Origin: a virus
Reading direction: 5' to 3' (one strand)
IMG/VR virus record: IMGVR_UViG_3300034062_006947
Coordinates: 1 to 34,211 of that record
Length of the DNA stretch: 34,211 nt
The notes below the pieces were generated by a model. The model was not told the origin of the DNA and ran no database searches. It saw only the letters and a program-made list of their open reading frames with translations. A program made the translations under genes and the position numbers. Within the stretch, counting starts at the first letter, position 1, and every line of letters starts with the position of its first letter. Positions 9,487-33,997 of the stretch are shown one piece after another.

Positions 9487-10221
9487 GTGGCGACTATCTC
9501 CCGAAAATGGCGCCGGTTTCTGGCGGTGTCCTGCACCCATGGCCACATGGCCGACCCCAAGGCGCTCGGCGCCATGCTCAAGATGCGGGAGAAGTGGAAG
9601 CCCGACACGGTAATTCACCTGGGCGACTTCACCGACATGGCCGCCCTGCGTTCCTCGGCCAAGCCCGACGATCCTGACCGCGCCGAGTCGATGGCCGACG
9701 ACCTCCTCGCCGGGCTGTCCTTCCTGCGCGATCTGGAACCGACCCACGTCCTCATGGGAAACCATGAGCACAGACTTGTGAGTCTCGCCCACAGCGGCAA
9801 CGCCGTGGTCAGCTACGCGGCCGGCAATGTCCTGGCGCGGATCTCCGACGCGGCCAAGGAAATGAAGGCCAAGTTGATCCCCTACGACGGCCTCCGTCCC
9901 TCGGCCTGCGTGCAGCTTGGTGACGCCCTATTCCTCCACGGCGTGATGTATAACGTCAGCGCGGCCCGCGATCATGCCGAGGCGCTCGGGATGTCCTGCG
10001 TTTTTGGCCACACGCACCGCGTTGCCCAGGAACAGGGCCGCACTCAGCGGCCGGTCATCGGCTACAACGTAGGCTGCGGCATCAAGCTCGATGTCGGCTA
10101 TGCCCAGACCCGCCGGCAGACGCTGGGTTGGGCACACGGCCTTTGCTGGGGCGAATACACCGACAACTTGGCCGTCATTCGCCTAGAGACCCTTTCCCCT
10201 CACTACCGCCTGCCCCTATGA
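9487..10221 (+). CDS. Calcineurin-like metallophosphoesterase
   Basis: A 244-residue protein. GTG 9487 is the only possible start, because an in-frame stop lies 21 nt upstream; no ribosome-binding site is visible. Metal-site motifs in order: SCTHGH (16-20, where the usual D-x-H has Cys16 in place of Asp), HLGDFTD (44-50), GNHEHR (91-96), His151 and GHTH (174-177). The fold hydrolyses phosphomonoesters or phosphodiesters using two metals. The substrate is unknown, and the Cys for Asp change may alter metal choice. It leads a coupled three-gene plus-strand cassette beside attP, a typical place for accessory genes. Confidence 0.8.
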   Translation: MATISRKWRRFLAVSCTHGHMADPKALGAMLKMREKWKPDTVIHLGDFTDMAALRSSAKPDDPDRAESMADDLLAGLSFLRDLEPTHVLMGNHEHRLVSLAHSGNAVVSYAAGNVLARISDAAKEMKAKLIPYDGLRPSACVQLGDALFLHGVMYNVSAARDHAEALGMSCVFGHTHRVAQEQGRTQRPVIGYNVGCGIKLDVGYAQTRRQTLGWAHGLCWGEYTDNLAVIRLETLSPHYRLPL

Positions 10222-10490
10222 GTCACAAAAAGTCCGCAAAGAATGTGACACCCGACACCGATCTCGCCGCATGGTGCGCGGTCCTCTCGGCCAGCAGCGT
10301 CGTGCCCGAGGTCGTGCCCCCCGGATGGTTCACGGTTTCCCAACTTGCGGCAAAATGGGGCCGCTCGGAGTGCACTACCGGCGAGCGGGTGAAGCGGCTG
10401 TTCCGCGCGGGGCAGATTGAGCGACAGGATTTTGTTGTGCAGCTTCAGCAAGTTGTCCGGCGCACGCCTCACTACCGACTCAAGCAATGA
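10218..10490 (+). CDS. Small helix-turn-helix-like protein
   Basis: A 90-residue protein starting at ATG 10218 (ATGA with the phosphoesterase stop). After a flexible Lys/Ser N-terminus, the stretch PPGWFTVSQLAAKWGRS, then TGERVKRLFRAGQIERQDF, looks like a winged helix: helix, turn, recognition helix, then a beta wing ending in YRLKQ. It could regulate the cassette or act with the phosphoesterase. No named family was recognised. Confidence 0.55.
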   Translation: MSHKKSAKNVTPDTDLAAWCAVLSASSVVPEVVPPGWFTVSQLAAKWGRSECTTGERVKRLFRAGQIERQDFVVQLQQVVRRTPHYRLKQ

Positions 10491-10918
10491 ACTACCGCAT
10501 CGCCCGCGAAGACACGCCGCTGGCGGTCCTCCCGCTGGACGCCGAGTGCTTCCCCAGCGACCACCGCCCAGTGCTGGAAAACTCGCTCTGGTGGGTCGTG
10601 TGGCGCGGCAAAGAGCCGGTCGGCTACGCGGGTCTGCGGGTGTGCGAGAACGCGCAGAATGCCGGACTTGGGTTTCTCTCGCGGGCGGGCGTAGTGCGCG
10701 CGCATCGCGGCCGAGGGTTGCAGCGTCGGCTGATCCGGGCGCGGGAGGCCGAGGCGCGGGCGTTGGGGTTGAGCGAGATCGTGACCTATGTGGCCCACTG
10801 GAACTGCCCGTCGATCAATTCGCTCGTAGCCTGCGGCTACCGCTTCTATCGGCCCGAGAACAAATGGGGCGGGGCGGCGTCGGTATATTTACGGAAGTCG
10901 CTGGCGGGTGTAAAGTAG
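10487..10918 (+). CDS. GNAT-family N-acetyltransferase
   Basis: A 143-residue protein starting at ATG 10487, overlapping the previous stop (ATGA). The acetyl-CoA loop is seen in AGVVRAHRGRGLQRRL (V-R-x-x-x-R-G-x-G-L). It is followed by the alpha helix with AREAEARALG, then a strand and the C-terminal NCPSINSLVACGYRFY, which closes the fold. It transfers an acetyl group to an unknown amine, perhaps a host or virion protein. Third gene of the plus-strand cassette. The unit ends near the hairpins at 10942-10998. Confidence 0.75.
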   Translation: MNYRIAREDTPLAVLPLDAECFPSDHRPVLENSLWWVVWRGKEPVGYAGLRVCENAQNAGLGFLSRAGVVRAHRGRGLQRRLIRAREAEARALGLSEIVTYVAHWNCPSINSLVACGYRFYRPENKWGGAASVYLRKSLAGVK

Positions 10919-11108: not shown

Positions 11109-11717
11109 TTAGCCCTGCCAGTCCGCGTTTTTGCCGCGGACATCGACGTGGACGAACGTGCGATACTTGCCGATGCCGCCACGGAATAGCCCCTCTCGCC
11201 GCATTTGCGTGAGGATCTTGTGCAAGGTGGCCGGTGAGCCCGAGAGATCGAGCGCGCCGCCGCGCATATGGATGCTGGCCGAGGCCCCGCCGATGGCCCG
11301 GTTGTAGGCCGCGTTGCGATACGCGCTGTTGATCTTGACCGCCTTGCCCAGCCGGTGCCGCGCCTCGTCGGCGACTTTGGTCACGGCCAGCAGGGATGGC
11401 CAGAGTGAGCGCGGCGGGTCGGTGTTGAGTTGCAGCTTGGCGTCCCGTGCGCCTCGGAAAAACACTTCGTCAGCCGTGAAGTAGCGCACGCCCGCGTCAT
11501 CGAGCAGCTTTTGGAAATCAGCCTTTGCGCCCGTGAGATTTTTTCCGGCGCTTGGCCGCTTCGGCTTGGAGGCGGTCGGTAGCGGCGACGAGCACTTCGG
11601 ACAAGTCTGTGGCTGAAAGTCGCTTGATAAGGGCAAGGGCGACTTCTCGCCTATCGTTTGCAGGCCAGCCAGAAAGGCCACGAATGAGTTCTTCCACCAT
11701 GTAGTTATTGCTTTCAC
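11109..11717 (-). CDS. M15-type peptidase (endolysin)
   Basis: A 202-residue protein if started at GTG 11717. Residues 62-202 form the peptidase M15 domain: DDAGVRYFTADEVFF, SAYRNAAYN, then SIHMRGGALDLS giving zinc ligands His150 and Asp157, and FVHVDV giving His190. It would cut peptide cross-links in peptidoglycan for lysis. The first 60 residues are Pro/Ser/Lys-rich with a CPKC pair and overlap another convincing frame (11518-11700). No start codon exists in this frame after that overlap begins to end, so either the overlap is real or a frameshift joins the two frames. Confidence 0.75.
   Translation of the reverse strand: MKAITTWWKNSFVAFLAGLQTIGEKSPLPLSSDFQPQTCPKCSSPLPTASKPKRPSAGKNLTGAKADFQKLLDDAGVRYFTADEVFFRGARDAKLQLNTDPPRSLWPSLLAVTKVADEARHRLGKAVKINSAYRNAAYNRAIGGASASIHMRGGALDLSGSPATLHKILTQMRREGLFRGGIGKYRTFVHVDVRGKNADWQG
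11518..11700 (-). CDS. 60-residue protein overlapping the endolysin gene
   Basis: Starts MVEELIRGLSGWPANDRREV, then LALIKRLSATDLSEVL and ATDRLQAEAAKRRKK. This is a regular amphipathic two- or three-helix protein with a basic tail, much more natural-looking than the endolysin frame over the same bases. The frame ends 21 nt after an A6 run (11544-11539 on the minus strand). It may be an independent small gene or the true N-terminal part of the peptidase reached by a frameshift. Neither start has a ribosome-binding site. Confidence 0.5.
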   Translation of the reverse strand: MVEELIRGLSGWPANDRREVALALIKRLSATDLSEVLVAATDRLQAEAAKRRKKSHGRKG

Positions 11718-24100: not shown

Positions 24101-24509
24101 AGGTGACAGGGTCGAACTCGAGGCCCCAGACTTTGACCAGGTCTTCGTCGTTCAAGTCGGTGAGGAACTGGTCGGCGTCGACCAGGTCGGACAGGGTTTT
24201 CCAGAGGGACTTAAATCCCGGAGCGCCTTCGTCGGTGTCGTCGGGGTCGGGTAGGCGGCGTTCGTTGCGCTCGGCGTCGGGCGTTTCGTCGGCCGCGGTG
24301 ACCAGGGTAATCGTCAGGCGACAGTTCCAGGTCTGCATCCCGCGCACCACCTCATCGAGCTTCTCGGCGCGCACGGTGATCTGCGGCAGGGTGTCTTCGT
24401 CGGATTCGTCGGCGCTGACTATGCGCACGTCATCAAGGGCCGCGGCGTTTTCGAGGACGGCAACTGTGGCCCGCTCGAGGGACTCTTCGATAGAATAGAC
24501 GGTGCTCAT
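24024..24509 (-). CDS. Tail completion/terminator-like protein
   Basis: A 161-residue acidic protein placed between a head-completion candidate and the tube, the usual place for a tail terminator. It begins MSTVYSIEESLERATVAVLE and has a beta-rich middle (QITVRAEKLDEVVR, CRLTITLVTAADE) and an Asp-rich loop near the centre. A tail terminator fold is helix plus sheet like this, but sequence alone does not prove it. The start at 24509 is ATGA-coupled. Confidence 0.5.
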   Translation of the reverse strand: MSTVYSIEESLERATVAVLENAAALDDVRIVSADESDEDTLPQITVRAEKLDEVVRGMQTWNCRLTITLVTAADETPDAERNERRLPDPDDTDEGAPGFKSLWKTLSDLVDADQFLTDLNDEDLVKVWGLEFDPVTYENEPRSFRRSLNARLWCNEAYPAA

Positions 24510-24811
24510 CGTTGCTCGGGGCTTTGCAGGGTTAGGTCAATGGAGGCAACGTCGGTGTCGATTCCGACGATGCGGTAGCGGCGGCCGCAGTATTTGACCA
24601 CGCCGCCCATGCGGAACTCGGGGGCACCGGCTTTCAAGACGGTGGCGGTGAGGCTGCGTTGGGCCTCGAAGCCGCCCTCACCCAAGGCGTTGGCGTAGGT
24701 TTCCTCGCCGACCACGGCGTCGTAGCATCGCTCGCGGTATTCGATCTGGTCGGCGATGGTGCCGACGGCCTCGGTGCAGCCGGCGGTGTAGGCTTGGGCG
24801 AACTGGGACAT
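24506..24811 (-). CDS. Head-tail connector/completion protein candidate
   Basis: A 101-residue protein. A helical N-terminus (FAQAYTAGCTEAVGTIADQI) is followed by beta strands (AQRSLTATVLKAG, MGGVVKYCGRRYRIVGIDTD, ASIDLTLQSP). The strand-rich end with G-x-x-Y-R-I-x-G resembles head closure proteins. The role is inferred from position between head and tail genes. CTGACA lies 14 nt upstream of ATG 24811. Confidence 0.5.
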   Translation of the reverse strand: MSQFAQAYTAGCTEAVGTIADQIEYRERCYDAVVGEETYANALGEGGFEAQRSLTATVLKAGAPEFRMGGVVKYCGRRYRIVGIDTDVASIDLTLQSPEQR

Positions 24812-25741
24812 TTATCCGAGGGCGGTGTCAGCGGCGGCGAAGATGTCGGCCCAGACGGCTTCGGGGGTCATGGTGGAGCGGACGAGGTTTTGCGCGGCGC
24901 TGGCCATTTTCTGGTGGGCGGTGAAATCAAAGCCGCGGGCCCAGGCGGTGAGGGTTTCGGCGGGGATGCCGGGGCGCATGGCAATGCGGTGGATTTGGTC
25001 GATGAACCAGTTGTTGCCGGGGTCAAGCGGCTGGCCGACTTCAACCAGCAGCGCGCCGGTGGCGGCGGCTTCGTAGAGGCGGATGCTGTGGCCGCGGCCA
25101 TTGGCGGGCGGGCAGAGGACGGCGGCGTAGCGGGCGTAGGCGTCGGCGACTTCTTGCACGGTGTCGACGGAGCGCGGGATGTTGAGGATGTCGAGGGCGC
25201 CGGCGTCGCAGAAGGCTTCGAGGACACGGCGTCGCTCGGCATACATGCCGGGGACATAGTCGCGGGTGTGGCCGATGAAGCAGAATTTCTGGATGCGCTC
25301 GGCCAGCGGTTTGCCCGGAATGAAAACATCGTCGGCAACCCACATGCGCGAGGTGAATGCTGGCCAGCCCATGGCGCGGAAGGCTTGGGTGTCGCAATCT
25401 TGGGTGCAGACGTAGAGGTCGGCCCAGCGGCGCTCTTGCTCGAAGGCGGCGTAGCCGGGGAACGGGTTGCCGAAAGTGTGCTCGCTGATGCAAGCGATGA
25501 TGGGTTTGCCGAGGGCGCGGATCTGGTCGTGGTGCTGGCGCAGGAAGCCTTGGAATTGGAAGGGAGAGATGAGGCAGATGGCGTCGGAGTCGCTTTCGCG
25601 CAGCATTTGCATGACGGCGGCGTGGTCTTGATCCATGGGGATGACGCGGCGGGCCGTGCCGGTGAGGCGAAGCTGCGACATGGCGGCCCAGGCGAAGGAT
25701 GCGGGCTCGGCGGCGAGGAAAAGGAAGTCGCCGGTCCTCAT
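24812..25741 (-). CDS. GT4-like glycosyltransferase
   Basis: A 309-residue protein from ATG 25741 (ATGA). The first half is a Rossmann-like donor domain (MRTGDFLFLAAEPASFAWAA, CLISPFQFQGFL). The second carries QKFCFIGHTRDYVPGMYAER, then RLYEAAATGALLVEVGQ, the conserved region of GT-B enzymes related to Glyco_trans_1_2 in which the Glu of RLYEAAA contacts the sugar nucleotide. No signal or membrane segment. It is coupled to a two-domain glycosyltransferase upstream, and the pair sits between the capsid and connector genes. Substrate unknown. Confidence 0.7.
   Translation of the reverse strand: MRTGDFLFLAAEPASFAWAAMSQLRLTGTARRVIPMDQDHAAVMQMLRESDSDAICLISPFQFQGFLRQHHDQIRALGKPIIACISEHTFGNPFPGYAAFEQERRWADLYVCTQDCDTQAFRAMGWPAFTSRMWVADDVFIPGKPLAERIQKFCFIGHTRDYVPGMYAERRRVLEAFCDAGALDILNIPRSVDTVQEVADAYARYAAVLCPPANGRGHSIRLYEAAATGALLVEVGQPLDPGNNWFIDQIHRIAMRPGIPAETLTAWARGFDFTAHQKMASAAQNLVRSTMTPEAVWADIFAAADTALG
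24826..24831 (-). promoter_or_regulatory. CTGACA variant of the start-associated motif (connector gene)
   Basis: CTGACACC lies inside the end of the glycosyltransferase gene; the hexamer ends 14 nt upstream of ATG 24811. Confidence 0.3.
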
Positions 25742-27522
25742 GCGTGCTCGGCAAATTTGGCCTCGATCTCGGGGGCAAACTCCGGGTTGGCCTCGAGGTA
25801 GTCGGGGTTGCGCTGGCAGAAGAGGTCGAAGCCTTGGCGGTAATTCTCCAGGCTGTTGCTGCGGCGGGTGGTCTCGTGGCCTTCGGGATCGTGGAGGTGC
25901 GGGATGACGAGGTCGGAGCAGACGAGCCATTTGTTTTTCATGGCACGCCAACTCAACTCGGTATCGGCGAACATGCTGCGGTAGCCGTCGTGGTAGAGGC
26001 CGCCATCGTAGCCGAGCGCGGTCACCGCGGCGCGGGTGAGGCAGGGCGTGCAGATGAGGCCGTCTTGGCGGCGGCTGTCGCCGATCTGGAGCATGGCGGG
26101 GCGGTCAAGGCGGGAACCGAAGGCGTCGATGATGCGTTGGTCCCAGTGGAGCGGCGGCGCGGCGAGGTCGTCTTGGATGTAAAGCAGGATCTGGCCGGCG
26201 CTGGCGCGGGCGGCGGCATTGGTGGCGGCGGCGCAGTTGGTCTGGTCGAGGCGGCCGGCGGGGGATGTAGCGTGGCGGAAGCGTCCGAGGATGGGAAGGT
26301 CGGGGCTGTCGGCTTCCAGGCCGAAGATGTGCTCGATGCGTTCGGCGTTTTTGGCTGTGTCGAGGAAGGTCTTGCGGACGCGGGCGGCTTGCTCGGGGCG
26401 GCCGCGGGTCGGGTGGATGAGGCTGATGCTGGGGGCGGTCTGTGCGGCGAGGCGGGCGGTTTCGATGCCGTCGGCCTCGGCGGTGCGGCCGGTCATGCGG
26501 AGGAGTTGGGTCCAAAGGGTCTCGCCGGCCCAGCCGTAGAGGCCGTCGCGGTGGGTCCAAGGTTTGTCGATGGGACGCGGGAGGGCCATCATGCTGCGGA
26601 GGTAGGCTTCGGCGCGGACGATGTCTCCGAGGTCGAGGTGGAGGGCGCCGAGCAGGGCCAGGGCTTCGCGGCGGTTGGGCGCGGTGCGGTAGGCGCTATG
26701 TAGCGCGGTCATCATAGCGGTGTGCTCGGCGGTGCCGGTCTCGATGATGTCGGGGCGGGCCATCTCGGCGATGTTGAGGCAGAGCTCGTAGCGTTCGGTC
26801 GGCTCGAGGCGCGGATGGGCCAGGGCCTTCTTGGCCATGGCCATGGCGTCGTTCTTGCGGCCGGCGCCCATATACTCGCCATGCAGATGATAAATTTCGC
26901 TCAGGGTGCGGTCGGCTTCGGGGATGCTTTCGAGGATGGTCAGGTTGCGGTTGCTGCCTTGCTTGGGCTCGTCGTCGGGGAGGTGGACGACGACGGGGGC
27001 GTCGGACTTGGCGACTTTGGCGCCGGGGACGAGTTGGAAGTTCTCGTGGATCTTGTTGATCCATTTGCCGCGGTCGCGACGGACGAGGCGCTCGCGGAGG
27101 TTGTGGGCGATGCCGCGCCCGGCAACGTCGTGGTAGAGGGCGAAGGCGTCGAAGTCGGCGGCGAACTTGGTGAAGAGCTCGTGGAGGGCGGGCGCGAAGT
27201 TGTCGCCGGGGACGTCGTCGGCGTCGATCCAGAGGGCCCAGGGTTTGCTGGCCAGGTCGAAGGACCGCTGGCGGGCGGCGCCGAAGTCGTCGACGTGGGG
27301 CCAATCGTTGCCCGGAGCGTTGGCGTAGACATCGTAGGTGGCGCCGTGCTTCTGGCAGACCTCGGCGACTTTGAGGCTCTTGGCCTCGGCTCCGGTGGCG
27401 TGGACGACGCACATCTCGCTGACGGCGGGGGCGAACTGGGTGAGCGCGCGGTCGAGGCGCTTGGGCTCGTTGCCGACGATGACGCAAAGCGCGATCTGCT
27501 CGCGCGGGCTGATAATCTCCAT
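25738..27522 (-). CDS. Two-domain GT2 glycosyltransferase with helical repeat middle
   Basis: A 594-residue protein from ATG 27522. Residues 8-200 are a GT-A domain: ALCVIVGNEPKRLDRAL, and ALWIDADDVP with the metal-binding D100-x-D102. Residues 205-350 are helix pairs resembling TPR repeats (AMAMAKKALAHP, ALALLGALHLDLGDIVRAEAYL). Residues 365-545 are a second GT2 domain (ISLIHPTRGRPEQA, LLYIQDDL with Asp451-452, and ADTELSW). Such bifunctional enzymes transfer two sugars in sequence. Target may be a virion protein or host surface glycan. The gene starts just past a terminator and has TTGACA 17 nt upstream. Confidence 0.75.
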   Translation of the reverse strand: MEIISPREQIALCVIVGNEPKRLDRALTQFAPAVSEMCVVHATGAEAKSLKVAEVCQKHGATYDVYANAPGNDWPHVDDFGAARQRSFDLASKPWALWIDADDVPGDNFAPALHELFTKFAADFDAFALYHDVAGRGIAHNLRERLVRRDRGKWINKIHENFQLVPGAKVAKSDAPVVVHLPDDEPKQGSNRNLTILESIPEADRTLSEIYHLHGEYMGAGRKNDAMAMAKKALAHPRLEPTERYELCLNIAEMARPDIIETGTAEHTAMMTALHSAYRTAPNRREALALLGALHLDLGDIVRAEAYLRSMMALPRPIDKPWTHRDGLYGWAGETLWTQLLRMTGRTAEADGIETARLAAQTAPSISLIHPTRGRPEQAARVRKTFLDTAKNAERIEHIFGLEADSPDLPILGRFRHATSPAGRLDQTNCAAATNAAARASAGQILLYIQDDLAAPPLHWDQRIIDAFGSRLDRPAMLQIGDSRRQDGLICTPCLTRAAVTALGYDGGLYHDGYRSMFADTELSWRAMKNKWLVCSDLVIPHLHDPEGHETTRRSNSLENYRQGFDLFCQRNPDYLEANPEFAPEIEAKFAEHA

Positions 27523-27539: not shown

Positions 27540-27545
27540 TGTCAA
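27540..27545 (-). promoter_or_regulatory. TTGACA start-associated motif (glycosyltransferase)
   Basis: The hexamer ends 17 nt upstream of ATG 27522. It lies 10 nt beyond the capsid terminator hairpin, so this is the only visible initiation signal for the two-gene cassette. Confidence 0.45.
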
Positions 27546-27555
27546 CAAAGCAGAA

Positions 27556-27575
27556 CCCCCGGCGGTGGCCGGGGG
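27556..27575 (-). terminator. Hairpin terminator after the capsid gene
   Basis: CCCCCGGC-loop-GCCGGGGG, an 8-bp all-GC stem, followed on the minus strand by a T-rich TTCTGCTTTG. It starts 29 nt past the capsid stop. It would separate heavy capsid transcription from the glycosyltransferase genes. Confidence 0.7.
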
Positions 27576-27604
27576 CTTGCTGTTGCGGCTGAGGCTGGGA
27601 CGAA

Positions 27605-28498
27605 TTAGCCCGTGATGAGTTTCGCGGCGCCGGTGAGCGCGCGGCTGTGTCCGAAGACACACTCATATGAAACGAAATGACGTCCCGAAGCGGGCGAATA
27701 GTGCCTTCTGTACCCGAGCGAAATTCCGCTCTGCGGATCGGTGACCACGGTGGCGGCCAGGTATTCGCTGGGCGCTTGCGGCTCGAGGGCGCGGATGGCA
27801 ACGGCGGCGGCGTTCGGGTGGATGGCCAGACCCTTCAGCGTGATGCTGTTGGAGGGCAGGATGACCGACTCGTAGACGTTCATGCCGAGGAGGCGCGGGA
27901 CGCGGCCTTCGACGATGGTGTCGCGGGCGCCGAACTGCGAGGCATCCAACAGGTTGCTCTGGGACAGGAGGCTGTCGTAGAGGGCGCTGTCGAGGATGAG
28001 CGCGCGCTCGGTCATGGGCACCTTCTCGTCGGTGAGCGCCTTGCGGAGCGTGCGGGCGTTGGTGATGGTGAAGGCCGAGGCGCCGGTGACCGACGCGGTG
28101 TATTGCGCGGCCGAGCTGGCGGTGGTGACGAAGAGGTTGAGCACCGAGGTCAACACGGCTTGCGCCAAAGCGCGACCCTGCTGGACGGCGAACTTCTGGA
28201 TCTCGGCGATGGAGGACTTGCTGTATTCCGTGTCGCTGAGGCTGACGGTGACGATCTGGTGCTTGTCGACCGAGATCGAGACGTTATTCATCGTGCCGCC
28301 GGTGGACTCGTAGGAGTTGTCGAAGGTGGTCGCGGTGAGGTTGGCGATGAGCGGGACTTCAACCGTTGCGCCGCGGCGGACAACTTCGCTGGAATAGGAA
28401 GTGGTCAGCACGGACAAGGGCATGAGGTCCGCCGTGAATGCTTCCAGCGCGGTCTGCGCCAGGAGCTTGTCGTTCAGACTGCTGCTAATTGTGGCCAT
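27605..28498 (-). CDS. Major capsid protein
   Basis: A 297-residue protein. ATISSSLNDKLLAQTALEAF, VVRRGATVEVPLIANLTAT and VTVSLSDTEYSKSSIAEIQK read as the N-terminal region, and SLGYRRHYSPASGRHFVSYE as the last strands, of an HK97-fold coat protein of the P22-like coat branch. It follows the protease and scaffold gene and is followed by a strong hairpin, as a highly expressed gene would be. No prohead delta domain is seen at the N-terminus, consistent with the separate scaffold. The start at ATG 28498 has no SD. Confidence 0.8.
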   Translation of the reverse strand: MATISSSLNDKLLAQTALEAFTADLMPLSVLTTSYSSEVVRRGATVEVPLIANLTATTFDNSYESTGGTMNNVSISVDKHQIVTVSLSDTEYSKSSIAEIQKFAVQQGRALAQAVLTSVLNLFVTTASSAAQYTASVTGASAFTITNARTLRKALTDEKVPMTERALILDSALYDSLLSQSNLLDASQFGARDTIVEGRVPRLLGMNVYESVILPSNSITLKGLAIHPNAAAVAIRALEPQAPSEYLAATVVTDPQSGISLGYRRHYSPASGRHFVSYECVFGHSRALTGAAKLITG

Positions 28499-28516: not shown

Positions 28517-28888
28517 TTAGGAGTAAAAGGTCTTGAGGATCTCCGCTTTGTTGGCGCGGAAGAACTGGGTGGCTTCGGGGCCGTCGAGGGCGGCGAATTT
28601 CTGCGCGGCGGTCAACTCGGGCACGACCGGGGTGGCGGCGGTGTCGATGCCGACGGAGGCGACGATGGCGGCGGCTTGTTCGCCGGCGCTTTTCTGCTCG
28701 GCGCGGAGGGTGGCGATCTCCTCGTCTTTGCTGGCGCTCTCGGCGGCGAGGCGCTCAACTTCGGCTTTGAGGGTTTCGAGTTCCTTGGCGAGGTCTTCGG
28801 CGGCTTGGGCCTGGACGGCTTCGGCGGCGTTCTTGGCGTCGAGGTCGGCCTGGAGGGCGTCGACTTTGGCCTGGAGTTCGGAGTTCAT
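28517..28888 (-). CDS. Nested scaffold protein (internal start)
   Basis: ATG 28888 (Met224 of the protease) has GGAGG 5 nt upstream, one of the few good ribosome-binding sites in the late region, and TTGACA at 17 nt. It would make a 123-residue protein that is just the helical scaffold and its C-terminal capsid-binding part. The arrangement is the same as lambda C with nested Nu3. Confidence 0.65.
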   Translation of the reverse strand: MNSELQAKVDALQADLDAKNAAEAVQAQAAEDLAKELETLKAEVERLAAESASKDEEIATLRAEQKSAGEQAAAIVASVGIDTAATPVVPELTAAQKFAALDGPEATQFFRANKAEILKTFYS

Positions 28889-29557
28889 GTTATCCTCCGC
28901 GGCGGTGTCAACCGGGGCGGCGGGCTCGGGTGCGGGTTTGCTGGCCATAGTGTTTTGAAATTGGGCGAAGCGTGCGCGGGCCTGCTCGGGGGTGACGGAG
29001 GCGGCGGCGGCGATGGGGGCGTCGATCTCGTCAACGAAGCCGTGCTCGAGGGCTTCGGTGGCGTCCATCCAGGTCTCGTCGTCCATCATTTGCTCGATGG
29101 CGGCGCGGGGCTGGCCGGTCTTGCGGACGTAGGCGTTGACGAGGGTGGCCTTGAGTTTGTCGAGGACGTCGGCTTCTTTGCGGAGGTCGTCGGCGTCGCC
29201 CATGGTCATGCTCCAGGGATTGTGGATCATTAGGAGGGCGTTCTCGGCGATGCGGGTCTCTTCGCCGGCCATGGCAATGACGGAGGCCATGGAGGCGGCG
29301 AGGCCGTCGATGTGGACGGTCAGTCCGCCTTTGTGGCGCTTGAGGGCATTGAAGATGGCCGCTCCTTCGATGACGCTGCCGCCGACGGAGTTGATGCGGA
29401 GGTCGATGTGCTGGCCTTTGAGCTTTTTGAGATCCGCGGCGAATTGCTTGGCAGTGACTCCTCCGAAGCCGATCTCATCGTAAATAGAAACCTCAACGCT
29501 TTCGTCGGTGTCGCGGTCGTCGGTCGGAGAAATTGCATACCAGCTGCGCGGGTTCAT
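28517..29557 (-). CDS. ClpP-type prohead protease fused to scaffold domain
   Basis: A 346-residue protein. Residues 20-185 are a ClpP/S14-type serine protease: INSVGGSVIEGAAIFNAL, then GLAASMAS with Ser89, LLMIHNPW with His112, and an acidic residue near 160. Residues 190-225 are an Ala/Pro linker. Residues 225-346 are a charged helix (SELQAKVDALQADLDAKNAA) and a compact tail ending FFRANKAEILKTFYS, typical of scaffold. The protease processes the prohead while the scaffold guides shell assembly. The ATG at 29557 overlaps the portal stop (ATGA). Confidence 0.8.
   Translation of the reverse strand: MNPRSWYAISPTDDRDTDESVEVSIYDEIGFGGVTAKQFAADLKKLKGQHIDLRINSVGGSVIEGAAIFNALKRHKGGLTVHIDGLAASMASVIAMAGEETRIAENALLMIHNPWSMTMGDADDLRKEADVLDKLKATLVNAYVRKTGQPRAAIEQMMDDETWMDATEALEHGFVDEIDAPIAAAASVTPEQARARFAQFQNTMASKPAPEPAAPVDTAAEDNMNSELQAKVDALQADLDAKNAAEAVQAQAAEDLAKELETLKAEVERLAAESASKDEEIATLRAEQKSAGEQAAAIVASVGIDTAATPVVPELTAAQKFAALDGPEATQFFRANKAEILKTFYS
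28906..28911 (-). promoter_or_regulatory. TTGACA start-associated motif (nested scaffold)
   Basis: TTGACACC inside the protease coding region, ending 17 nt upstream of the internal ATG 28888. Its presence at an internal start strengthens both the motif and the nested gene. Confidence 0.5.
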
Positions 29558-31602: not shown

Positions 31603-31608
31603 TGTCAA
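31603..31608 (-). promoter_or_regulatory. TTGACA start-associated motif (joining protein gene)
   Basis: TTGACACC; the hexamer ends 13 nt upstream of GTG 31589. Its TGA is the stop codon of the large terminase gene. Confidence 0.45.
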
Positions 31609-33380
31609 TTATTCTGGGTCGACTGCGGCTTCTGGGCCTGCATCTTGAAAACGCCGCCGAAATCGGCGAGGGCCGTGATCATGCTTTCGCAGTCGAGCAA
31701 GTGGTCGTCGCGTTTGCCGATCCGAGTCCAGAAGGCCGTCTCGCGGCCGGTCAGGTGGTTGCGTTTGACGATTTTCTTGTGCGCGTTGATCTGGCGCTTG
31801 TAGCTGTCGGAGACGTCGGCGGCCACGGTCCACTCGGGGCCGGCGCCGGATCGCAGCCATTCCAAGATGTCCTGAGTAAGTTGCGATGACCAAAGCATAT
31901 GAATCCATCCTTTGCGGAATGGGCGCACGATGGACGCGGCGCGGCGGACGTCTTGGCCAAGTTTGATCGGATAGTGGGCGCGCTCCTCGCCTTTGCAGGG
32001 AATCCAGCGGTTATGCATGCAGCGGTCGTAGACCTCTTGCGCGCGAAAGCCGTAATCGACGGCGACCAGCTTGGCGCGCATCGGCCCGACCGCGCGCGGC
32101 ACATCGAGGCCGAGCTCGGACACCTTGGCTTCCACGTCTTCCCAAAGTTGCAGGCGGCCCTCGTCGACGAGTCGGCTGGACCCGTCGCGGGCAAAGGCCC
32201 GGCAGACAAACCAGTAGTGATCCATCTGAACGTCGACGCCCATCATCCGCACTTCGCCGTCTTTAAGCGGATCGCGCAGGCCATACTCGCCAAAGGGGAT
32301 GACGCGCTCTTCTTCGTTCATCGATTCCTCCCACGGCTCGGCAAGCTGGGACTGGATGAAGTCCATAAGTCCAAGCAGGCCGGCTTTGGCCGTAAGAAAT
32401 TGCGCGGCCAGTTCGCCAAAGTCGCAAGATCGCCAAGGCGCATACAGGGAATTGAGGTGGTAGCTGCGGCGGTTGATTGGTGCGCCGGGATTGGTTGCGC
32501 GCCATTCTCCGTGGCGGATCATCTCCATCTTTTGCCCACTGCTAATCGGTTGGTCGCAGGACTCGCAATAATAGGCCGCCGTTTCTTTGACTCGCTCAAG
32601 GTTCCAGCTTTTGCCGTCTTCCATTTTTGCATCATCGGCCCAGCGCACGCGCGGCCAGGCCAGCCGTTGCTTGTGGCCGCAGTGCGGACACGGCACAAAA
32701 TAATACCGCTGGTCGCCTGCCAAAAACGCTTTCCATATCTGGCCTTCAGCGGTGGTCGGCGTGCTGACTTTGACGGTCAGGGAATTGGCAAAGGTCTTGG
32801 TTCGGTTCTGCGCCAGTGCCACTGCGTCGGCTTCTTTCGTCGATTCGCCGGCCAGCTTGTCCACCTCATCAAGCAGCAGCAGGCCGGCGGGGCGTGAACT
32901 AAGTGAAGAGGGCGAGTTGGACCCGACGAAATTCAAGACACACTGGTTGAAGGTTTGCTGAAGGTGCTTGAAGGCGTTGCGGTTTTTGTCGACTTGCGAT
33001 TTTAGAACCGGCGACTCTTCGACGATCGGCTGCCAGCGGACCTCGGAAAAGCTACGGGCCAGGGCTTCGTTGGGCATGACCCAGACCACCGGCTGCGGAC
33101 GGTTGACGATTCGCCAGGCGGTTCCCATCTGGAGCAAGGTCGTCTTGCCCGTCTGCGTGCCAAAGACCATGGCAATCTCGCTGACGTCCACGTCGCCAAA
33201 GGTTTCCAAGGGCTCGCGCATGTAGGGCGTCATGGCCGTGGAGAATCGCCCGGGCATGGCAGTGCCGGTGCGCTCGCTTAACCAGATTTCATCCTCGCAC
33301 CACTCAAGAACGGTGCGGTCGTCGCTGACGCCATAGACCGCCCTCAAGTCCTCGCGCAGTTGGTCGGCGGCCGGGCTCAT
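31605..33380 (-). CDS. Large terminase subunit (GpA-type)
   Basis: A 591-residue protein. Walker A is GTQTGKT (residues 74-80), Walker B LLLLDEVD (167-174), a coupling motif KVSTPTT follows near 204-210, and CPHC (231-234) with CESC (272-275) forms the zinc site typical of lambda gpA-type terminases. The nuclease part has GVDVQMDHYW and a later VAVDYG, giving RNase H-like catalytic acids. It packages DNA and cuts at genome ends. Lambda-type terminases often cut at cos sites, so a cos site may lie upstream of the small subunit. The start at ATG 33380 overlaps the small terminase stop. Confidence 0.9.
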   Translation of the reverse strand: MSPAADQLREDLRAVYGVSDDRTVLEWCEDEIWLSERTGTAMPGRFSTAMTPYMREPLETFGDVDVSEIAMVFGTQTGKTTLLQMGTAWRIVNRPQPVVWVMPNEALARSFSEVRWQPIVEESPVLKSQVDKNRNAFKHLQQTFNQCVLNFVGSNSPSSLSSRPAGLLLLDEVDKLAGESTKEADAVALAQNRTKTFANSLTVKVSTPTTAEGQIWKAFLAGDQRYYFVPCPHCGHKQRLAWPRVRWADDAKMEDGKSWNLERVKETAAYYCESCDQPISSGQKMEMIRHGEWRATNPGAPINRRSYHLNSLYAPWRSCDFGELAAQFLTAKAGLLGLMDFIQSQLAEPWEESMNEEERVIPFGEYGLRDPLKDGEVRMMGVDVQMDHYWFVCRAFARDGSSRLVDEGRLQLWEDVEAKVSELGLDVPRAVGPMRAKLVAVDYGFRAQEVYDRCMHNRWIPCKGEERAHYPIKLGQDVRRAASIVRPFRKGWIHMLWSSQLTQDILEWLRSGAGPEWTVAADVSDSYKRQINAHKKIVKRNHLTGRETAFWTRIGKRDDHLLDCESMITALADFGGVFKMQAQKPQSTQNN

Positions 33381-33997
33381 ATCTCGAAGCGCACGCCCTC
33401 TTTGAGCTTCTCAAAGAACATCTTCAGTTCGACTTCGATCTCTTTCTTTGGAAGTCCGTGCAGCCGGGCGGCCAAAGTCTTGGGTGCGGCGTCGAGTTGG
33501 CGGCGGATAGAGTTGTGCGGCCGCAGGAAGATGTCGCGGGCCTCGGAGTAGTATAGGGTGATTTTCTTTTCGCGCAGATAGTCGCGGCGGAACTGGTCAG
33601 CGCGCTGGCGCACATTGGAAGCCAGGGCAAAATTGGCGTTGGCCTTGCGATATTCTTCATGCGTGGCACCGCTTTTGGCCGCGTGTTGCAGGCGGTCGTA
33701 GGCAATTTTCTCGGCGCGCTTCGCCCGGCGGCTGTGCTCGATCGGATCGCTGTTTTCTTCCTCGGCAATCAGCGCCTCGGCGTCGACTACCTCTTCCTCG
33801 GGCAGTTCGTCGACAAAGGCCGGCTCGCTAATCGTCACGGGATCTGGGGCTTTGCGCTGGCGGTTGCGCGGCTTGACGTGGTTTTTCCGCCACGCGTTCA
33901 TTTCTTCGGTCGTGGTTTCCGGCATCCCCGCTTTGAGCAGATTGGCGGCTTGGCTTTTGCTGATGCCAAGCTGATCGGCTATGCTGCGAACGCTCAT
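33377..33997 (-). CDS. Small terminase subunit
   Basis: A 206-residue protein. Residues 3-28 are a helix-turn-helix (VRSIADQLGISKSQAANLLK), the DNA-recognition part of small terminases. A charged linker follows, an acidic segment (DELPEEEVVDAEALIAEEE), and a long coiled helix from HSRRAKRAEKIAYDRLQHAA to near the C-terminus, probably for oligomerisation. Adjacent to and coupled with the large subunit. The ATG at 33997 has no SD. Confidence 0.75.
   Translation of the reverse strand: MSVRSIADQLGISKSQAANLLKAGMPETTTEEMNAWRKNHVKPRNRQRKAPDPVTISEPAFVDELPEEEVVDAEALIAEEENSDPIEHSRRAKRAEKIAYDRLQHAAKSGATHEEYRKANANFALASNVRQRADQFRRDYLREKKITLYYSEARDIFLRPHNSIRRQLDAAPKTLAARLHGLPKKEIEVELKMFFEKLKEGVRFEI

Follow-up and report, generated by a model that had tools for sequence, protein, structure and literature searches.

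A capsid-linked glycosyltransferase gene with a variable second slot in the head operon of an environmental tailed phage, and its possible role in virion glycosylation

Described systems resembling the locus

Virion glycosylation by phage-encoded enzymes has been reported for mycobacteriophages (Che8, Corndog, Myrna; Freeman et al. 2023, as cited in PMC12619734, PMC12363180 and PMC11256854), which resemble the phage considered here in having glycosyltransferases of their own, although capsid modification has been demonstrated there and is proposed here. In the related mycobacteriophage Maravista, the glycosyltransferase genes are found near the 3' end of the genome and thus away from the capsid gene. 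Working models for a cytoplasmic glycosylation of proteins in which the substrate is bound by a module of its own are GmaR, the Listeria flagellin GlcNAc transferase, which acts on a protein substrate and for whose TPR a role in recognising flagellin has been proposed (PMC9638930), and FlmG, where a separate N-terminal domain confers flagellin specificity (PMC7591256). GmaR, just like the first of the two genes described below (gene 1), has an N-terminal glycosyltransferase domain followed by a TPR, but carries an antirepressor domain in place of a second glycosyltransferase domain and has a flagellar role. The succession of a GT-A and a helical domain, along with the same DxD, HE and RN motifs, is also seen in the peptide S-glycosyltransferases SunS and ThuS (7msn, 7msp, 7msk), which, however, are ~15% identical to gene 1 and have neither its extra GT-A domain nor its tie to a capsid gene, SunS acting on a bacteriocin peptide. 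The TerL-gpW-portal-Clp protease-capsid order of the locus is shared by the Verrucomicrobia phage P8625, the gp11 of which is a homologue of the capsid protein discussed here (28% identical), but which is devoid of a glycosyltransferase gene behind it. Searches of the open-licence literature found no description of a GT2-TPR enzyme encoded next to the capsid gene in phages of this group, and it is such an enzyme, and not virion glycosylation itself, already known in mycobacteriophages, that is likely new.

Gene order and domain make-up

The material was a virus record of 34,211 bases (IMGVR_UViG_3300034062_006947), the whole of which is referred to as the window; its features of interest are collected in Table 1. 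An earlier note on this DNA had claimed that a two-domain GT2 enzyme and a GT4-like enzyme are encoded between the capsid and connector genes, behind a terminator ending the capsid gene and with a start motif of their own, all of which was borne out: its coordinates (24812-27522) are correct as plus-strand positions, both reading frames are intact and lie on the minus strand, gene 1 contains two GT2-type domains with a TPR-like helical domain between them, gene 2 is of a GT4-like fold, and both the hairpin and the motif are in place.

Table 1. Coordinates of the features discussed (positions in the window)
Feature	Position	Strand	Description or basis
Major capsid protein gene (P22-coat-like / HK97-type family)	27605..28498	-	phrog_267 / phrog_283 major head protein, E 1e-23
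Intrinsic terminator hairpin, capsid gene / gene 1 gap	27554..27577	-	10 bp, 8 G-C pairs, z -2.4
TTGACA start motif	27540..27545	-	23 nt upstream of the gene 1 ATG
Gene 1	27522-25738	-	intact ORF, 594 aa
Gene 1 residues 1-185, GT-A / GT2 domain, SunS/GmaR type (by sequence and fold)	26968..27522	-	PF00535, profiles, fold
Gene 1 residues 186-360, TPR-like helical domain	26443..26967	-	matches to engineered TPR proteins; helical model
Gene 1 residues 361-594, second GT-A/GT2-like domain	25741..26442	-	phrog_14945 glycosyltransferase, 1.5e-9; fold
Gene 2, variable slot	25741-24812	-	intact ORF, 309 aa; GT-B, GT4/PF13524-like glycosyltransferase
Head-tail connection gene, first conserved gene past the cassette	24506..24811	-	weak PF05354 Phage_attach match

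The late genes of the minus strand run as small terminase, TerL (gpA type), gpW-like gene, lambda-type portal, ClpP-like protease, capsid, gene 1, gene 2, head-tail gene and tail genes, the small terminase being called by position and the gpW-like gene by position and homology to its P8625 counterpart. Genes 1 and 2 share an ATGA overlap, and the head-tail gene begins right after the gene 2 stop with no gap (or directly after gene 1 in the relatives without gene 2). The small and large terminases (31605-33997, minus strand) are 89% and 94% identical to those of the relative L008, but the TerL is only ~50% identical to that of most other close relatives, which points to an exchange of packaging genes separate from that of the head genes. 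Within the ClpP-like protease gene, an in-frame internal ATG at 28888 (28517-28888, minus strand), with a TTGACA upstream at 28911, would yield a coiled-coil product of 123 aa that is probably the scaffold protein; in phage lambda, the scaffold Nu3 likewise stems from an internal start in the protease gene C. Elsewhere in the window, a calcineurin-like phosphoesterase gene (9487-10221) and a GNAT acetyltransferase gene (10487-10918), both on the plus strand, adjoin an M15 peptidase gene, a probable endolysin (11109-11717, minus strand).

Each of the 32 intergenic stretches compared between capsid gene and gene 1 contains a GC-rich hairpin. The TTGACA motif ahead of gene 1 is common to other late genes, all nine minus-strand occurrences in the window (31608, 29577, 28911, 27545, 23888, 23088, 21539, 17424 and 12313) sitting 13-17 nt before an ATG/GTG, with a background of about 8% for an ATG in that slot. 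The same spacing is kept in close relatives (e.g., 9/9 in L008 and in L012); in MAG genomes it is hardly enriched overall, and many of the instances there fall in phage-like contigs (G003:C1, G001:C61). By these sequence patterns, TTGACA looks like a phage-specific start signal, and not a promoter.

The first part of gene 1 matches PF00535 above the cut-off (E 1e-5), and two PHROG glycosyltransferase families are matched by residues 10-331 and 365-548. A profile of gene 1 relatives compared with the PDB retrieved GmaR as the best match (2e-21), followed by SunS (8e-17) and ThuS (3e-12), with the alignment spanning the glycosyltransferase domain and the DxD, HE and RN motifs agreeing with those of SunS/GmaR; D100/D102/D103, H159/E160 and R192/N193 are invariant across 34 sequences, R143 and R145 being likewise listed as conserved in this domain. 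The middle region matches engineered TPR proteins in the profile search, and in the AlphaFold model (pLDDT 92) it is mostly helical and mostly above 90, so that a GT2 domain of the GT-A kind with DxD and nucleotide-binding motifs is directly followed by a helical TPR-type domain, as in the SunS/GmaR type. In the fold search, residues 1-302 matched SunS (Z 22.1 over residues 1-295; 2.9 A, 273 residues) and ThuS (Z 20.7), and SunS, ThuS and GmaR outranked all other glycosyltransferases for this part by profile and fold, whereas residues 358-594 matched GT-A enzymes, with human ppGalNAc-T2 (Z 16.9) and the fucosyltransferase WrtF (Z 16.2) tied. These matches put the first half of gene 1 among protein/peptide glycosyltransferases and identify the second as GT-A only. 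Judged by sequence and modelled fold, the N-module seems well placed with the protein/peptide glycosyltransferases, and the TPR-like domain is a probable protein-substrate binding module.

A two-domain polysaccharide synthase of the chondroitin-polymerase type was considered and dismissed, as K4CP (2z86), although present in the fold list, covers both domains only at an rmsd of ~21 A, the resemblance thus being limited to single domains. No membrane segments were detected in either protein (highest 19-residue hydropathy 1.04 for gene 1 and 1.13 for gene 2), and Gtr-type serotype conversion (membrane-bound GtrA flippase, GtrB/GtrC) was rejected on account of this and of the flanking genes being head genes. 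Purifying selection acts on the N-terminal and TPR parts of gene 1 (dN/dS 0.06-0.47 in the pairs compared), which, together with the retention of the gene in >100 relatives, argues against a chance occurrence. Tandem large GT2-type ORFs matching the N-module only were seen in bacterial/archaeal genome contigs (L054, L055 and L058, from uncultured bacteria and a methanogen), and such cellular ORFs are a possible source of the phage enzyme.

The protein encoded by gene 2 scores 17.1 bits against PF13524, below the cut-off of 25 that is exceeded by its relatives in L003 (25.3) and L068 (32.7). Its AF2 model (pLDDT 86.6) has a GT-B fold matching PimA, BshA and other GT4 enzymes at Z 19-20 over ~285 residues, and it shares with PF13524/GT4 enzymes the C-terminal YEAxxxGAL motif, but differs in having Arg or Lys instead of the first Glu of the classical EX7E motif. 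A single-sequence PDB search with P0002 returned chance matches only.

A constant gene behind the capsid gene and a variable slot after it

Relatives were gathered by pattern-based scans with gene 1, the capsid protein, profiles of each and a divergent gene 1, "distinct" denoting a non-identical 700-base or 600-base stretch, and all counts refer to samples of the loci listed and are hence lower bounds. At least 125 distinct ORFs with the N-module were found, at least 111 of which follow a capsid gene of the same family as that in the window, the other 14 of the 125 being 12 generic GT2 ORFs in bacterial/archaeal genomes, L077 (at a contig edge) and L099. Among the distinct capsid loci listed that had enough downstream sequence, gene 1 is present in 100 out of 101, the exception being P8625. 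The gap between the capsid gene and gene 1, across the terminator, is 54-145 nt in 31 of 36 measurable non-redundant loci (37 gene 1 proteins were left after the removal of close copies). In L099, the capsid protein is an unrelated one (phrog_1005, 3e-29), and gene 1 again lies downstream past a terminator, as it does behind the capsid gene in all 46 testable loci listed for this second capsid family. Four of these 46 have an extra gene in between, which in L213, the one inspected, is HNH-like (L213:3446-4129); a DNA methyltransferase gene takes the same place in L034 (L034:10604-11845), and the two cases indicate that genes can be accommodated immediately past the terminator. Gene 1 is a constant core gene of the head module of this phage group.

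Among the loci collected, the full three-domain protein was found in phage-like contigs only, and no full cassette had host polysaccharide genes next to it, an arrangement that the earlier note had named as contrary to its reading, nor was gene 1 found beside tail genes without a capsid gene. A tblastn search with P0001 and P0002 against 50,697 phage records gave no match, and the gene 1 of L099 matched Streptomyces and Pelagibacter phages across the second glycosyltransferase domain only, which leaves the full cassette without a match among isolates. The idea of a rare dedicated two-gene cassette inserted into the head operon does not hold for gene 1, which is constitutive in the phage group; in a modified form, it applies to gene 2, as only the second slot varies.

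As to absence from close relatives, likewise raised in that note, the close ones keep gene 1, and it is the distant P8625 and 13 contigs of its clade, along with two Verrucomicrobiota MAG contigs with capsid homologues, that have no glycosyltransferase behind the capsid gene (a fourteenth contig of the clade, L312, was left out, having only 380 bases downstream). The existence of such cassette-free clades implies that gain or loss of the cassette concerned entire lineages, and that those possessing it have retained it. A scan of viral contigs for relatives of the cassette-free capsid L274 found none. The MAG contigs that do carry the cassette bear the labels Verrucomicrobiota (two), Armatimonadota and Burkholderiaceae, but could be phage contigs that were misbinned; P8625 and the two MAG labels are what suggests a Verrucomicrobiota host.

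Between gene 1 and the head-tail gene, the second slot is empty in L005, L012, L034, L036 and L146, holds a gene 2 homologue in the window, L002, L003, L007, L014, L040 and L142, and a small GT2 gene in L016, L018, L024, L099 and others, with L068 having both a small GT2 gene and gene 2, and L107 another GT2 gene; in addition, a Methyltransf_24 domain, which is related to sugar O-methyltransferases, is fused to the end of many gene 1 proteins. Gene 2 homologues are 42-52% identical, with an nt identity of about 57-66%, and are flanked by better-conserved neighbours: between the window and L003, DNA identity is 91% for the protease gene, 92% for the N-terminal and TPR domains of gene 1 and 91% for the head-tail gene, compared with 61% for what little of the second glycosyltransferase domain could still be aligned and 58-64% for gene 2. 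The second domain is truncated in L003, L007 and L014, and appears less constrained in L003 and L007 (dN/dS 0.42-0.75 vs. 0.08-0.47 in the first two domains). By these sequence comparisons, the operon is a conserved one with a mosaic hot spot at the second slot.

Probable target and competing readings

Best supported by the sequence data is virion glycosylation: a phage-encoded glycosyltransferase of a seemingly protein-modifying type is located in the late region, and the family of the N-module, together with its place downstream of capsid genes of two unrelated families, favours a virion protein as the target. The locus would then be a late modular protein-glycosylation locus tied to the capsid, in which gene 1 starts and variable enzymes extend the glycan, the target most likely being the major capsid protein, a reading to which we assign a probability of roughly 0.62. 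Homology, position and conservation suggest the reaction, its target, the sugar, the linkage site and the expression levels to be as follows. Gene 1 would be a soluble cytoplasmic enzyme, expressed late from the head operon, with the terminator behind the capsid gene holding its levels below those of the capsid protein; the adjoining TPR domain would recognise the capsid protein, onto which, as the likeliest virion protein, the N-terminal GT2 domain would put a first sugar drawn from the host nucleotide-sugar pool. Extension or capping of this sugar would fall to the second GT2-like domain and to gene 2, and in other members to a small extra GT2, to the fused methyltransferase or to nothing at all.

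A candidate acceptor site is Thr289 (codon 27634-27632), the ninth residue from the capsid C-terminus: in the alignment, this column holds Ser or Thr in all 37 cassette-bearing proteins and in none of the 17 cassette-free ones, and no other Ser/Thr column fully separates the two. As these capsids form largely separate clades, the contrast may be inherited and not functional, which makes Thr289 a prediction and not a test. A C-terminal Ser/Thr tail on the capsid, looked for by analogy with the mycobacteriophages, was discarded, no consistent tail being seen besides Thr289. Apart from the possible inheritance of the Thr289 contrast, it counts against capsid glycosylation that the place by the capsid gene could be a tolerated late-gene slot (as the genes found there in L034 and L213 suggest), that two unrelated capsid families would have to serve as substrates of one enzyme family, and that the likeness of the second GT2-like domain extends to generic GT-A enzymes as well as peptide GalNAc-transferases.

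The tolerance of that slot, along with the mycobacteriophage glycans known from the tail tube as well as the capsid (PMC12619734), also speaks for the same chemistry being directed at another virion target (a tail tube, head-tail or fibre protein), the capsid-side position being merely convenient for late expression. This seems rather unlikely, given that, among the loci collected, gene 1 was not found next to tail genes in the absence of the capsid gene and still follows the capsid gene in L099 (second capsid family), in which none of the window's head or tail genes was recognised. Of the two possibilities that the earlier note had left side by side, virion proteins gain from the protein-glycosyltransferase N-module and the capsid linkage, and the host surface loses ground. 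Temperate phages commonly carry surface-modifying glycosyltransferases, an integrase is encoded in the window, and teichoic-acid and polysaccharide enzymes are as similar to the second domain and gene 2 as any others, so lipopolysaccharide or another surface glycan might be altered late or in lysogens, blocking superinfection or aiding release; with neither protein membrane-bound by prediction, the N-module grouping as it does and host polysaccharide genes not adjoining the three-domain protein in any of the loci collected, this is an improbable explanation.

A host protein (pilin, flagellin or a regulator) as the substrate would have its precedents in the flagellin-modifying GmaR and FlmG (PMC9638930, PMC7591256). 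It would not explain why, in phages that have diverged, the cassette has stayed linked to the capsid gene, and can be given little credence. Phage DNA glycosyltransferases exist too, and the T4 alpha-glucosyltransferase does appear in the gene 2 fold list, albeit far below many close GT-B folds; still, DNA glycosylation as an anti-restriction measure is hardly credible for a cassette in the head operon that includes a protein-glycosyltransferase module, with no base-hydroxylation/hypermodification gene recognised among the window proteins scanned (a subset of the ORFs).

Returning to the capsid as the target, one may tentatively, and at somewhat less than even odds, go further and picture a large environmental tailed-phage group with two unrelated capsid types that obligately glycosylates its major capsid protein by means of the SunS/GmaR-type enzyme whose gene comes right after that of the capsid, and that diversifies its outer sugars by swapping the second-slot enzymes (GT4, GT2, methyltransferase), a phage counterpart of the antigenic variation of surface glycans. 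If true, a glycosylated capsid would be the norm throughout a widespread environmental phage group, some members of which probably infect Verrucomicrobiota, a phylum with, to our knowledge, few isolated phages, whereas sugar-coated particles have so far been documented in a few mycobacteriophages. The locus offers an enzyme and a putative substrate that can be tested together, a candidate residue for the acceptor and, in its swapped sugar-extending modules, a series provided by nature, and raises the question of which environmental selection might favour a variable sugar coat on a phage head.
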